Source: a virus. From it: a DNA stretch of 24,517 nt. The translations under genes were made by a program, and so were the position numbers. The notes beneath the pieces were generated by a model, which saw nothing but the letters and a program-made list of their open reading frames with translations, searched no databases and was not told the DNA's origin. Position 1 is the stretch's first letter. Every line of letters starts with the position of its first letter. Below are positions 4,228 to 24,437 of this stretch, piece after piece. Where the stretch lies: the IMG/VR virus record IMGVR_UViG_3300010316_000044, positions 1 through 24,517 of that record. One strand, written 5' to 3'.

Positions 4228-4989
4228 ATGGCGTTCAATATTCAAGAATTTAAATCAAGAATGGACCGTTATGGCGGTCCTGCAAGAACAAACCTTTTTA
4301 TGGTAGAATTGGCAGCACCCAATGACTCAAATGTTCCTATGCCTAGTAGAGATTTGAGATTTTTCTGTAAAACAGCAACAATACCAAGCATAACAATTGA
4401 AACAACAGATTATAAACCTAACAACATAGGGTTATCTCAGTCAATGCCAACAGGCATTTCTAATGATGCAGTAGAATGTGTTTTTATGCTTGATAGCAAC
4501 CACCAAGTGCTTTCATTTTTCCATGAATGGATGCAAAACATTGTCAACTACGACACATCAAACGGTTTATTTTCACCAAATGCTAGAGATGCCGACCAAT
4601 TGCCTTATGAGATAAATTACAAAAAAGGTGCAAATGGTTATTCAATGAGAATGATCATAAAAATGTTTTCTGTCCATGATTCATCTTTGATATATGAATG
4701 TGTTCTTGAAAATGCATACCCTAAGACAGTAGGATCATTGAGTCTTTCATGGGAAGAAAATGATACACCAGCAACACTGCCTGTTAGTTTTTCATATAGC
4801 GAAATGAAAATGAGTGGAACCAGACCAAGTAATAATGCGCTTGCAAGTCCTAGGGGTGTTGGTGGGGTGGATTTCTTTACTTCTGTAGGCGAAACAGTCC
4901 AAACAATATCAACAAACCTACAAACATCTGTCAATAGATTCACGACTGTTGCGAACAATGCGATTTCACCATTTACACGATTTTTTTAA
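4228..4989 (+). CDS. Tail-tube-fold baseplate protein (gp54/gp19-like)
   Basis: This 253-residue protein follows the previous stop by three bases. It starts MAFNIQEFKSRMDRYGGPAR and then NLFMVELAAP, with DLRFFCKTATIPSITIETTD, a line typical of tail-tube-fold proteins (short helix, beta strand, then the K-x-A-xx-P-x-I-xxE element). The middle (HQVLSFFHEWMQNIVNYDT) and the late CVLENAYPKTVGSLSLSWEE also fit the gp19/gp54 family. In T4 gp54 sits on the gp48 cap and starts tube assembly; gp19 itself is the major tube and is shorter (163 residues). Length and position before gp26 favour an initiator or baseplate role over the main tube. The last 50 residues are Thr/Asn-rich. Confidence 0.65.
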   Translation: MAFNIQEFKSRMDRYGGPARTNLFMVELAAPNDSNVPMPSRDLRFFCKTATIPSITIETTDYKPNNIGLSQSMPTGISNDAVECVFMLDSNHQVLSFFHEWMQNIVNYDTSNGLFSPNARDADQLPYEINYKKGANGYSMRMIIKMFSVHDSSLIYECVLENAYPKTVGSLSLSWEENDTPATLPVSFSYSEMKMSGTRPSNNALASPRGVGGVDFFTSVGETVQTISTNLQTSVNRFTTVANNAISPFTRFF

Positions 4990-5007: not shown

Positions 5008-5706
5008 ATGTCACTACCTAAAATTCAATCTCCTATATTTGAAATGATGCAACCATCAACAGGCAAAAATATTAAATACAGACCATTCACCGTAAAAGAA
5101 GAAAAAATTCTTTTGATAGCACAAGAAACGAATGACATTGATCAAGCAATTTTATCAATAAAGCAAATTGTTAATAATTGCCTGATAGACTGCAACATTG
5201 ATAAACTATCAATGTTCGATTTGGAATATGTTCTATTAACACTAAGATCAAAATCAGTTGATAACAACGCAGAATTTGTAATAAAAGACCCTGATACTAA
5301 TGAAAGTGTAAAACTTCAATTAGATTTAAATGATGTTGTTTTAACTAAAGATGAAAAACACACAAACGAAATAAAGATAAATGATGAATTTGTTTTATAT
5401 ATGAGATATCCAACAATAAACGAATTTTTGGATGTTGTAAAAAGTAAAAGTGACCCACAAGTATCATTTAACGTAATGGTTTCTTGTATGGACAAATTGG
5501 CATCAGAGGATGAAGTTTTCAAATTTGATGAATACACACAAGAAGAAAAAGAAGCCTTTATTGATGATTTAGATGCGAATGTAGTCAAACAAATAAACAC
5601 TTTTTTCGATACTACCCCCAAATTGCGCCACGAAATGAAATATATAAACTCAAACAAAGAAGAAAAAACATTCGTGATAGAAGGAATGGAAACTTTTTTT
5701 ATCTAA
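5008..5706 (+). CDS. 26: Baseplate hub assembly protein gp26
   Basis: The 232-residue product starts MSLPKIQSPIFEMMQPSTGK and then KYRPFTVKEEKILL, the signature opening of the T4 gp26 family (T4_baseplate; T4 gp26 is 208 residues). An upstream in-frame TTG at 4993 would add five residues; the ATG at 5008 has an AAAGGA site at the right distance and is preferred. The last codons are ACT TTT TTT ATC TAA, giving a T TTT TTT heptamer two codons before the stop. The next ORF starts inside this stop codon (TAATG) in the -1 frame. In T4, genes 26 and 51 are needed to build the hub. Confidence 0.85.
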   Translation: MSLPKIQSPIFEMMQPSTGKNIKYRPFTVKEEKILLIAQETNDIDQAILSIKQIVNNCLIDCNIDKLSMFDLEYVLLTLRSKSVDNNAEFVIKDPDTNESVKLQLDLNDVVLTKDEKHTNEIKINDEFVLYMRYPTINEFLDVVKSKSDPQVSFNVMVSCMDKLASEDEVFKFDEYTQEEKEAFIDDLDANVVKQINTFFDTTPKLRHEMKYINSNKEEKTFVIEGMETFFI

Positions 5707-5708
5707 TG
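5693..5708 (+). promoter_or_regulatory. Candidate -1 ribosomal frameshift site at end of gene 26
   Basis: Seven T residues (5694-5700) sit in the gp26 frame as T TTT TTT, a perfect X XXY YYZ heptamer. After a -1 slip the next codons are TAT CTA ATG, with no stop before the following 57-codon ORF, so a gp26-gp51 fusion can be made. Without the slip, the TAATG overlap allows reinitiation. Both routes couple the two proteins. Confidence 0.5.
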
Positions 5709-5879
5709 CTGTGTCATATGAATTTGGGAATGTATTATCAAATGATATTCGCATTGGCACAGCACCACAAATATCAGATTTCAGAAATAGAAAACCTTAT
5801 ACCATATGAAAGAGATGTATACTTTGCCATGTTAGTTGAATATCTTAAAAAAGTAGAAGAAAGTAAAAATAGGAAGTAA
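5706..5879 (+). CDS. 51: gp51-like small protein downstream of gp26 (57 aa), possibly made by -1 frameshift
   Basis: This 57-codon ORF in the -1 frame relative to gp26 starts at ATG 5706, sharing one base with the gp26 stop. A second ATG at 5718 is possible. It reads MLCHMNLGMYYQMIFALAQH, then HKYQISEIENLIPYERDVYF, then AMLVEYLKKVEESKNRK: all helical, with the 'E-I-E-x-L-x-P-x-E-R-x-x-Y' pattern typical of small tail-assembly proteins. In T4, gene 51 lies directly after 26 and is needed for hub assembly. The gene order chaperone / overlapping chaperone / tape measure copies the G/GT/H order of lambda-like tails. It ends two bases before the next ATG and carries that gene's AGGAAG ribosome site. 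Confidence 0.65.
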   Translation: MLCHMNLGMYYQMIFALAQHHKYQISEIENLIPYERDVYFAMLVEYLKKVEESKNRK

Positions 5880-5881
5880 AA

Positions 5882-7792
5882 ATGGCAGATTCGGAAAAGG
5901 AATTAATTGACCGTATAAAAGCAGAAGGTCAATTAACAAGAAATACAGGAACAAATTCAATCAAGTCTATCAATTCAAGACTTGATAAATTTTCTGTTGT
6001 TTTTTCTTCTATAGAAACTAATCTAATGCAACAAACTAAAATGATGGAAGACACATTAAAGTTGCAATTAGAAAGCAATGAAACATCAAAAAGAATGGAA
6101 CAACTTGCAAAGTTGAATAGAGAGCAATCACCACAAGGCAATCCATCACCCTCACCAATCCCACCAAGCAATGCACCAGACGCTGCAAAAAAAGGAATAT
6201 TTTCAATGCTAGGTGGCATACTGGCATCTTTTCCAACGGGGTTCATGGCAACAGCGGGTGGACTTACAGCATTAAAAATGTCACCATTCACATTTGCCAG
6301 ATTTTTGGTACGTGGTGGTTTGCTTCTTTCTATAGCACCATTAATAGGAGAATTCGTAGGTGATTTTGTAGGACAGACACTTTCCAATTTTGAATTCGAT
6401 CAAGAGACAGTAAATAATATTGTACCGACAGCAGAAAGAACTGCAATGTTTGGTGCGTTTGGCGCAGCACTAGGAAAACGTTTCATTATACCAGGAATGT
6501 TGGCAGGATTAGCATCATCGCTATCAGAAGAACTTTTAACAATGATGGGGTTCACAGAAGAAGAAATGCAAAGACAAGTAGATTTGTTTGGGCAGGAAAT
6601 TTCTATTGATGATTTAACCGGAACTGGTCTTGCAGTAGGATCACTTGTCGCATATAAATTGTTTAGATCAAAATTATTAACAAATGTGTCTAGACTTCGT
6701 TTGGGTGTGGCAGGTGCTGTACTTGGAATATATATGGCATATGGTGATGAAGCGAAAGAATATCTATCAGATAATGTTGGGTTGCCAAGTGGGTTTGCTG
6801 ACATGGCAGTTGATGGGTTAGCATTTGCAGCAACAGGCGCTTCTTTGGGCAGAATGTTTGGTCCAATTGGAATGATTGCTGGTGCTGCGATAGGTCTTGC
6901 GGTAGGTTTTGGGTGGAATTTATATGACTGGATGGTAGATGCGAGAGATAGAACAACAGATAAGTTTTTAAATGAATTGGATGATTTGAGTGATGTATTG
7001 GACAGAGCGGCAAGTGGCGAAGAAATACCAGAAGAAGAAAGAAGAAGACTTGCGATACAAGCATCAGAAGGACAAAGATTAGGTCAAACACTAAGACCGC
7101 AGGAAGACTTAGATGCAATCGCGCAAGTCACAGAAGAAGCTAGACAGGCATTAGCAGCACAACCATTAAAACCCGAAGGAGTGTCACGGGATCAGTTAGA
7201 CAGAAGAGTCGAATTGGCACTGAGTGGTGATAGTCAAGCAATGAGTGAGTTACTTGATTGGGCAAGAGCAAACGAAGAAATGAGAGGTAGTATTAGTAGG
7301 TGGTGGAACCCTGATTCAGAATCTTACGTACAAGACCTTCTTGATGGTCTTATATTAACAAATCCAAACTTATTAATGGACCAAAATGCTATGAGTGAAT
7401 GGACACGCATAATCGAAAATGCAATGTCAGAAACTCCAATAATCGAAAATGTAATGCCAGAAACTCCAATAGCAACAAACCAAGTACCAATATTCCCCAC
7501 AACATTTGCAGAACAAGAATTACCAGAAGTAAATTTGCCTTCTTTATATGAGAATAACCCATTTTTAAATAATTTGGAGGAATATGAAATGGGAAAATAT
7601 GGAAGATTGTTAAATGAAATTGAAAGGGCGGCAACTGAAAGCGAACGTCCTACAACTGTATTGGTGAATGCACCTACTACTTATGGACCAAGATACACAA
7701 ATGTTCAAGGTGGAACGAATGTGCAATCAAACTCCGTATATGGTGGTGGTGGTGGATCACTAAATCACGGTTTACCAAGTAACGTAAAATAA
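5882..7792 (+). CDS. Tape-measure-like tail protein (636 aa)
   Basis: The product begins with about 85 charged residues forecast as coiled coil (SRLDKFSVVFSSIETNLMQQ onward), then a Pro/Ser-rich linker (about 85-100), then several long hydrophobic, Gly/Ala-rich segments (about 103-165, 190-220, 245-290, 305-350), then an acidic helical region and a Thr/Asn/Gly-rich tail with GGGGGS. The hydrophobic middle, large size and site directly after the gp26/gp51 pair all fit a tail length tape measure; T4 gp29 is 590 residues. Sequence likeness to gp29 is not obvious to me, so the call rests on architecture and order. A 30-bp tandem repeat lies in its late part. Its TAA runs into the palindrome at 7793. 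Confidence 0.6.
   Translation: MADSEKELIDRIKAEGQLTRNTGTNSIKSINSRLDKFSVVFSSIETNLMQQTKMMEDTLKLQLESNETSKRMEQLAKLNREQSPQGNPSPSPIPPSNAPDAAKKGIFSMLGGILASFPTGFMATAGGLTALKMSPFTFARFLVRGGLLLSIAPLIGEFVGDFVGQTLSNFEFDQETVNNIVPTAERTAMFGAFGAALGKRFIIPGMLAGLASSLSEELLTMMGFTEEEMQRQVDLFGQEISIDDLTGTGLAVGSLVAYKLFRSKLLTNVSRLRLGVAGAVLGIYMAYGDEAKEYLSDNVGLPSGFADMAVDGLAFAATGASLGRMFGPIGMIAGAAIGLAVGFGWNLYDWMVDARDRTTDKFLNELDDLSDVLDRAASGEEIPEEERRRLAIQASEGQRLGQTLRPQEDLDAIAQVTEEARQALAAQPLKPEGVSRDQLDRRVELALSGDSQAMSELLDWARANEEMRGSISRWWNPDSESYVQDLLDGLILTNPNLLMDQNAMSEWTRIIENAMSETPIIENVMPETPIATNQVPIFPTTFAEQELPEVNLPSLYENNPFLNNLEEYEMGKYGRLLNEIERAATESERPTTVLVNAPTTYGPRYTNVQGGTNVQSNSVYGGGGGSLNHGLPSNVK
7411..7470 (+). repeat. Two-copy 30-bp in-frame tandem repeat
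   Basis: Positions 7411-7440 and 7441-7470 are the same 30-bp unit with two C/T differences. They encode two copies of a ten-residue unit containing IIEN, a Met, and ETP. The repeat keeps the reading frame, so it lengthens the tape-measure-like protein without breaking it. Confidence 0.85.
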
Positions 7793-23556: not shown

Positions 23557-24042
23557 TTATTTGATTCCAATTTCATAATAATCGTATCTAAATGTGACAC
23601 TAGATTCTGGATAAATTACATCTGTATTGGTAGTATCTAGTTCTACACCAGACAAAGAAGTTGGGAAGCAGTTGTAAAATGTGAATTCTATATTTGCATT
23701 TTTGTTGCTGTTTAATATCATTACGGATATATCAGAATATAGACCATCATCAGATTCATTTGTCCTTCTATATTGATCAAAACTCTCTGGTGCAGATATT
23801 CCCTTTAACCAGTTAAATATTTCCAAATAATTTGTCATTTTTTCATCAACTATAAAAGACAAAGAAAGTTCGTCATATGTCATTTTATCTGGCGTTTGGA
23901 ATACTTTGTTCATTGGTCCACTTCTTTCTACAGGTGTCACATTCACCGCAGGAAGTGATATTTTTTGTGTAAAAAACTCCACGTTGGGTATACGTTTTAT
24001 AGCAATCTGAAACTCCAATGGAGATAGATAATTTGTAATCAT
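23557..24042 (-). CDS. Tail-tube-fold virion protein (gp19/gp54-like, 161 aa)
   Basis: The 161-residue product starts MITNYLSPLEFQIAIKRIPN and has FFTQKISLPAVNVTPVERSG, then YDELSLSFIVDEKMTNYLEI and FNWLKGI, then FYNCFPTSLSG and FRYDYYEI. This layout (short helix, K-x-x-LPxV, P-x-x-M-TYD-LSLSFxVDE, NWL) is typical of tail-tube-fold proteins; the length is near T4 gp19 (163), but the main tube protein would be expected beside the sheath gene, so a baseplate or minor tube role is also possible. The open frame continues upstream to 24159 over the divergent gene; the GAGGAAAATT site and family start favour ATG 24042. A late promoter lies at 24078-24085. Confidence 0.7.
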   Translation of the reverse strand: MITNYLSPLEFQIAIKRIPNVEFFTQKISLPAVNVTPVERSGPMNKVFQTPDKMTYDELSLSFIVDEKMTNYLEIFNWLKGISAPESFDQYRRTNESDDGLYSDISVMILNSNKNANIEFTFYNCFPTSLSGVELDTTNTDVIYPESSVTFRYDYYEIGIK

Positions 24043-24052
24043 AATTTTCCTC

Positions 24053-24081
24053 TTGACAAAACTGATTCTTCTGTCTATATT
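24053..24081 (+). promoter_or_regulatory. Sigma70-type promoter for the gene at 24108
   Basis: TTGACA (24053-24058), 17 bases, TATATT (24076-24081). RNA would start near 24088, 20 bases before the ATG. The -10 shares bases with the late promoter of the opposite strand. Confidence 0.65.
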
Positions 24082-24085
24082 TATA
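24078..24085 (-). promoter_or_regulatory. T4-type late promoter for the tail-tube-fold gene
   Basis: Plus-strand TATTTATA reads TATAAATA on the minus strand, 36 bases before ATG 24042. It overlaps the plus-strand -10 at 24076-24081. Confidence 0.7.
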
Positions 24086-24107
24086 TGGAATGAAAAGGAT
24101 AATTTAT

Positions 24108-24437
24108 ATGTTGATTGAAGACAAACTCCCGCATAACGATGATTGGGATGGTATGACATTAGATGATGTCAGAAAAAATCTTGACACGTGGGAAGAAAAA
24201 TGTATAAAATTAGGTGCCGTTGGTGAAGTGAAAATTGATTATGATTTTCATGGATATGATGGCGCATATGAAGTCTGGTTTGTGTTTCAACGTGAAGAAT
24301 CTGGTAAGGAAAAGATTGTTCGGTTGGAACAAGAAAGAAAAGCAAAAGAAAGAAAACAGAAATCTGATTTCAAAAAGCGCGAAAAAGAACTGAGAGAACT
24401 TAAACGCCTTAAAAATAAGTATGAGAAGGATACATAA
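24108..24437 (+). CDS. Small charged protein of unknown function (109 aa)
   Basis: The product starts MLIEDKLPHNDDWDGMTLDD, has a compact alpha/beta first half (VGEVKIDYDFHGYDGAYEVW, then FVFQRE) and ends in a long Lys/Glu/Arg-rich helix forecast as coiled coil (about 68-109). An in-frame ATG at 24090 would add six residues, but AAGGA at 24095 suits ATG 24108. I have the impression of a conserved marine T4-like phage protein, without known role. It is the first gene of a plus-strand unit with a sigma70-type promoter and overlaps the next gene as TAATG. Confidence 0.78.
   Translation: MLIEDKLPHNDDWDGMTLDDVRKNLDTWEEKCIKLGAVGEVKIDYDFHGYDGAYEVWFVFQREESGKEKIVRLEQERKAKERKQKSDFKKREKELRELKRLKNKYEKDT

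Follow-up and report, generated by a model that had tools for sequence, protein, structure and literature searches.

A probable programmed -1 frameshift linking gene 26 and the gp51 reading frame of a T4-like phage, with candidate stimulatory stem-loops

The locus analysed here raises the question of whether gene 26 and the short open reading frame (ORF) that follows it are two genes or one tail-assembly chaperone (TAC) gene read through a programmed -1 frameshift. The window, i.e. the whole stretch of 24,517 nucleotides that was analysed, is an IMG/VR virus record (24.5 kb), to which an 8.7-kb contig (L089) is identical at 4971 of 4972 bases. Gene 26 occupies positions 5008-5706 (+ strand) and encodes a 232-aa protein, assigned to the zero-frame, short TAC (TAC-N, gp26) by its matches to Pfam PF12322 (E 2e-51) and phrog_150 (E 3e-56). 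The gene ends with the codons GAA ACT TTT TTT ATC TAA (TAA at 5704-5706), which include the slippery heptamer T TTT TTT in the gp26 frame (5694-5700, + strand), in agreement with the preliminary description of this DNA. A single codon, ATC, separates this heptamer from the stop. The same description had placed a 57-codon ORF (5706-5879, + strand) in the -1 phase, open from the heptamer onward and with its ATG overlapping the gp26 stop. All three points were confirmed in the sequence, the overlap reading TAATG and the -1 frame being free of stops from 5568 to 5876.

Read from the heptamer, the -1 frame gives an extension of 59 residues (YLMLCHMN...NRK) plus the stop codon (5700-5879, + strand), assigned to the gp51 domain (TAC-C). 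Its homology to T4 gp51 is continuous, and the 57-aa ORF matches phrog_634 (E 1.5e-20), a family labelled 'baseplate hub assembly catalyst'. By these matches both parts of the locus belong to the T4 gp26/gp51 sequence families. The -1 ORF is open across the end of gp26, and a conserved heptamer lies close to where TAC-N terminates. PF12322 was matched only once in the 24.5-kb record, which is a fragment, and a separate full-length gp51-type long gene, the mark of a split TAC of the T4 type, was not found in this record. Judging from the sequence data, we consider it very likely that gene 26 and the gp51 ORF constitute one tail-assembly chaperone gene, expressed with a programmed -1 frameshift. 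The majority of ribosomes would terminate at TAA and give the 232-aa short form, and a minority would slip by -1 on T TTT TTT, where tRNA-Phe would re-pair TTT-TTT; a stem-loop that begins 7 nt past the heptamer would stimulate the slip. The slipped ribosomes would read 59 more codons and give a long form (TAC-NC) with a predicted length of 290 aa.

In the window, TTTTTTY is found 62 times (65.7 expected from shuffled sequence) and X XXY YYZ in-frame heptamers number 67 in 7188 codons. The TTTTTTY count is at chance level, and the case for the heptamer must therefore be comparative. This count would also suit a T run that arose by chance in AT-rich DNA, with gp26 and gp51 expressed without relation to it, as would an in-frame decoy (T TTT TTC, 5601-5607) located within gp26, 35 codons upstream of the stop. 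This decoy sits at a conserved internal Phe-Phe, and decoys of this kind are seldom seen in relatives (4 of 91). Seven annotated or single-cell relatives (Cr30, P-SSM2, phiM19, Mosig, DLP6, Aeh1 and AG-345-L05) were compared, 82 further loci were obtained by a scan of viral contigs, and 29 non-redundant representatives with less than 60% identity formed the statistical set. In all seven annotated or single-cell relatives the aligned site reads NNT TTT TTY, with the stop 1-8 codons later. The terminal Phe-Phe codons are T TTT TTY in 29 of 29 representatives, against 2 of 25 internal Phe-Phe pairs (Fisher 3e-13), and the joint log10 P calculated from the codon usage of each genome, with the sequences treated as independent, is -16.5. 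GAT TTT TTC is kept in distant phages (KVP40-like V09, YB07, a Variovorax phage, Ci1, ORM_20 and IC12), and in the GC-rich DLP6, where TTT makes up only ~10% of Phe codon use (P 0.10), TTT is still the codon present at the slip site. This conservation contradicts a chance T run, to which we give practically no credence.

The preliminary description had proposed a survey of relatives for the heptamer and the -1 phase of gene 51, and both proved to be conserved. Two loci, from Vibrio phage K469 (L094, 4720) and Pseudomonas phage Cygsa01 (L099, 4306), speak against the frameshift reading in that they lack a canonical heptamer and still have the -1 phase, their ATG overlapping the gp26 end or lying next to it. 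In Rhizobium phage RL38J1 (L102, 4642-4651) the site reads T TTT TTG, with the second Phe replaced by Leu; since the heptamer type is kept despite this replacement, selection seems to act on the nucleotides and not on the residues.

The same fusion could be obtained if RNA polymerase slipped on the T run, so that a small share of the mRNA was longer by one base. The seven consecutive Ts of the window are in line with this mechanism, but most relatives have six Ts only (TTTTTTC), runs of six are short for transcriptional slippage, and the stems located downstream are assigned no role by it, so that we regard polymerase slippage as very improbable.

Across gp26-gp51 gaps ranging from overlap up to 29 nt, the phase of gp51 stays at -1. 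This holds also where the ORFs do not overlap, which argues against gp51 being a small protein in its own right, translated by stop-start coupling at TAATG, with a phase that merely follows the overlap. Most loci, the window included, do have an ATG from which a separate gp51 could be started, and in the window it overlaps the gp26 stop; in about three quarters it lies no more than ten codons from the slip site, and L094 and L099 retain the overlap without the heptamer, as coupling would allow. However, 21 of 95 loci (e.g. Aeh1, Ci1, L013 and L021) lack an ATG among the first ten -1 codons, and codon 19 is the earliest start codon of any kind in the -1 part of Aeh1. Moreover, the residues encoded 5' of the gp51 ATG are conserved and can be aligned to T4 gp51, and coupling leaves the heptamer and the stems unexplained. 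Independent translation is thus quite improbable, and the 57-codon ORF, whose counterparts in relatives carry the annotation of a gp51 gene of their own, is probably no independent gene.

In T4, the 208-aa gp26 and the 249-aa gp51 are encoded on opposite strands. When a profile of in-silico fusions was used, T4 gp26 aligned up to the slip site, and T4 gp51 aligned over almost all of its length, the join included. The end-to-end comparison of T4 gp51 with the in-silico fusion gave an E value of 1e-10 with hhalign and 2e-13 with hmmsearch. T4 gp51 also matches phrog_150 over positions 13-280 of 282, in addition to phrog_634, and PF12322 matches T4 gp26 and T4 gp51 alike. Since T4 gp51 is homologous to the fusion and T4 gp26 to the short form, gp26 and gp51 correspond to TAC-N and TAC-C, and on homology the short chaperone of T4 is gp26 and its long chaperone gp51. 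Each form had a gene of its own at every T4-type locus checked, some of these genes being cut or broken. The slippery heptamer was found in none of the 13 readable T4-type gp26 ends, T4 itself reading GAG TTC TTT. Hence, the suggestion that T4-type gp26 and gp51 are tail-assembly chaperones is sustained by the homology across the junction, but T4 itself does not frameshift, the genes being separate and the heptamer broken. T4 differs from the window in its paralogous separate genes on opposite strands, with the heptamer lost and mostly without the stem, whereas homologous short and long forms are common to both. T4 would have two genes in place of a frameshift, or the change went in the reverse direction; in a tree of the gp26 domain the frameshift group and the T4 paralogues were separated with a support of 54, either direction of the T4 split being compatible with it. 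The T4 order is divergent, whereas in RB43 (L096, 3983-5291) a 51-type long gene lies on the same strand as a 26-type short gene, ahead of it and overlapping it. T4 gp26 (L007, 5803-6429) also gave a weak match to the gp28 family phrog_1140 (E 9e-4), and gp28 might be a further paralogue.

Structures of unexpected stability were obtained when the sequence 3' of the heptamer was folded. For the clade of the window, the RNAalifold consensus downstream of the slip site is a long-range stem of 9 bp, whose first base lies 7 nt after the heptamer. In the window its 5' arm (GCTGTGTCA) spans 5708-5716 and its 3' arm (TGGCACAGC) spans 5755-5763, both on the + strand; the two arms are recovered by the RNAalifold consensus, the pair counts and the fold, and they form a candidate frameshift stimulator. 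Standard pairs are present in 94.4% of the cells of this stem and 13 cells are altered on both sides. None of 500 shuffles reached this level, and sliding of the arms gave at most 39% of paired cells. The pair at columns 19/66 alternates between A-U and U-A, its partners being position 1 of a Ser/Cys codon and position 3 of an Ala codon. Two groups of marine phages have other covarying hairpins, of 11 bp and 5 bp (91.9% and 91.3% paired), and in one of these groups Glu/Val/Ala changes go together with position 3 of an Ala codon (Fisher 3e-5, the sequences not being independent).

The mean folding z score was -2.4 at the slip site, against -0.4 in gp26 and neighbouring coding windows (P 2e-28 for all loci and 1e-9 for the representatives). 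A protein-preserving null, in which 93 loci were recoded synonymously with the -1 protein held constant, gave a mean z of -3.0, with P <= 0.05 in 76% of the loci and P 0.005 for the window, the control in the body of gp26 being -0.4. With this null the stem was not significant in 12 of 13 homologous stretches of T4-type gp51, and no significant stem was found in the heptamer carriers L049, L062, L093 and L097. Since some heptamer carriers do not have it, the stem appears to be a common, but not universal, helper. In folds of single sequences, the distance from the heptamer to the first paired base was 4-10 nt in 63%. Nothing in Rfam matched at the slip site. GGAGGG-like purine stretches were seen by eye upstream in many relatives, but conserved EG residues are encoded there, and for this reason a Shine-Dalgarno stimulator is not claimed.

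We lean towards the view that, in those T4-like phages which fall outside the T4 group, the TAC-N:TAC-NC ratio is tuned through at least three independent stem-loop designs, namely the 9-bp long-range stem of the window clade and the 11-bp and 5-bp hairpins of the two marine groups, which would have been kept by compensatory changes that alter amino acids and lost when the T4 lineage split the gene. No report of stem-loops downstream of the slip site was found in the literature compared, in which Vladimirov et al. 2022 was represented by papers that cite it, and these stem-loops may be new.

The next ORF (5882-7792, + strand) encodes a 636-aa protein with two hydrophobic segments and is likely the tape measure, the probable client of the TAC. 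It follows gp51 in relatives, and the copies of some of them match PHROG tape-measure families (best E 4e-11), and the assignment is weak for the copy in the window (E 0.018), although the position of gp26/gp51 upstream of it fits. Kinship of this ORF family with T4 gp29 was also considered; the alignment was weak (hhalign probability 11%), and the identity as tape measure is therefore based on position and on the PHROG matches of the relatives. If lambda gpG/gpGT is taken as the model, the tape-measure protein, probably that encoded at 5882-7792, would be coated by the short form, and the helical C-terminal domain of the long form would recruit tail tube or baseplate parts. The slippery sequence of lambda G/GT differs from T TTT TTY. 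In lambda G/GT/H a short chaperone and a -1 long form precede the tape measure (PMC5009743); the window phage would resemble it in this, with a probable tape measure, and it carries T TTT TTY and a downstream stem.

The AlphaFold model of gp26 was confident (pLDDT 90.7) and matched annotated gp26 proteins in BFVD. A fold search of the PDB with this model gave no significant match, the HK97 tail chaperone 2OB9 being listed at E 1.4-1.7, and a sequence search of the PDB with the gp26 profile returned nothing. A T4-type gp51, taken as a stand-in for the fusion, was used to model the long form (pLDDT 87); its gp51 part consists of three C-terminal helices, and the fold search of the PDB with this model gave no match.

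The work of Vladimirov, Gautam and Davidson from 2022 is said to name genes 26 and 51 and to report that frameshifting is conserved in several T4-like groups. According to the passages on T4-like phages in PMC10885494 and PMC12846349 (citing Vladimirov, Gautam & Davidson 2022, Virology 566:9-15), these phages have short and long TACs, encoded by two genes in some of them, and their TAC-N genes are known to contain slippery poly-T signals. The core idea of T4-like tail chaperones made by frameshifting is thus correct but not new. A review from 2016 described G-T frameshifting as a conserved trait of the long-tailed phages and exempted T4 from it ('except T4'; PMC5009743). Outside this group, the TAC of Vandenendeviridae and Andersonviridae is described in PMC12846349 as using a -1 frameshift at a T-rich motif (GTTTTT) at the 3' end of TAC-N; these are other families, with another motif, and the passages on them describe no stem. 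In the annotation of Acinetobacter phage Stupor, gp26 and gp51 are tape-measure chaperones, and T4 gp51 has been reported not to be in the particle (PMC3004832).

The conserved heptamer, the -1 phase, the homology across the junction, the gp51 loci without a start, the covarying stem-loops and the long and short paralogues of T4 support the gp26-gp51 fusion, and from them we infer the slip, its rate and the chaperone roles. On this sequence basis, the window phage should make the 290-aa fusion by -1 frameshifting, and the 57-aa gp51 annotated in numerous marine phages of the T4-like kind probably represents the end of a frameshifted protein, without a separate gene. This would account for the gp51 of cyanophages, described as ~20% of the normal length, and for the gp51 'missing' in Aeh1 (PMC3037559). 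Since T4 has two genes where its relatives have one slippery gene, there would be two ways of setting the chaperone ratio, a point open to direct test, and the candidate stimulatory stems are targets for measuring or altering the TAC-N:TAC-NC ratio.

Other tail genes were observed in the window. Two tail-tube paralogues, both matching phrog_45, are located at 4228-4989 (+ strand) and 23557-24159 (- strand), the former just upstream of gp26, in the position of the baseplate tube initiator. A gp53 homologue extends over two adjacent ORFs in different frames (1379-2151, - strand); 1633-2151 matches phrog_232 positions 1-130 and 1379-1630 matches positions 154-193, which could reflect a true gene split or an indel.
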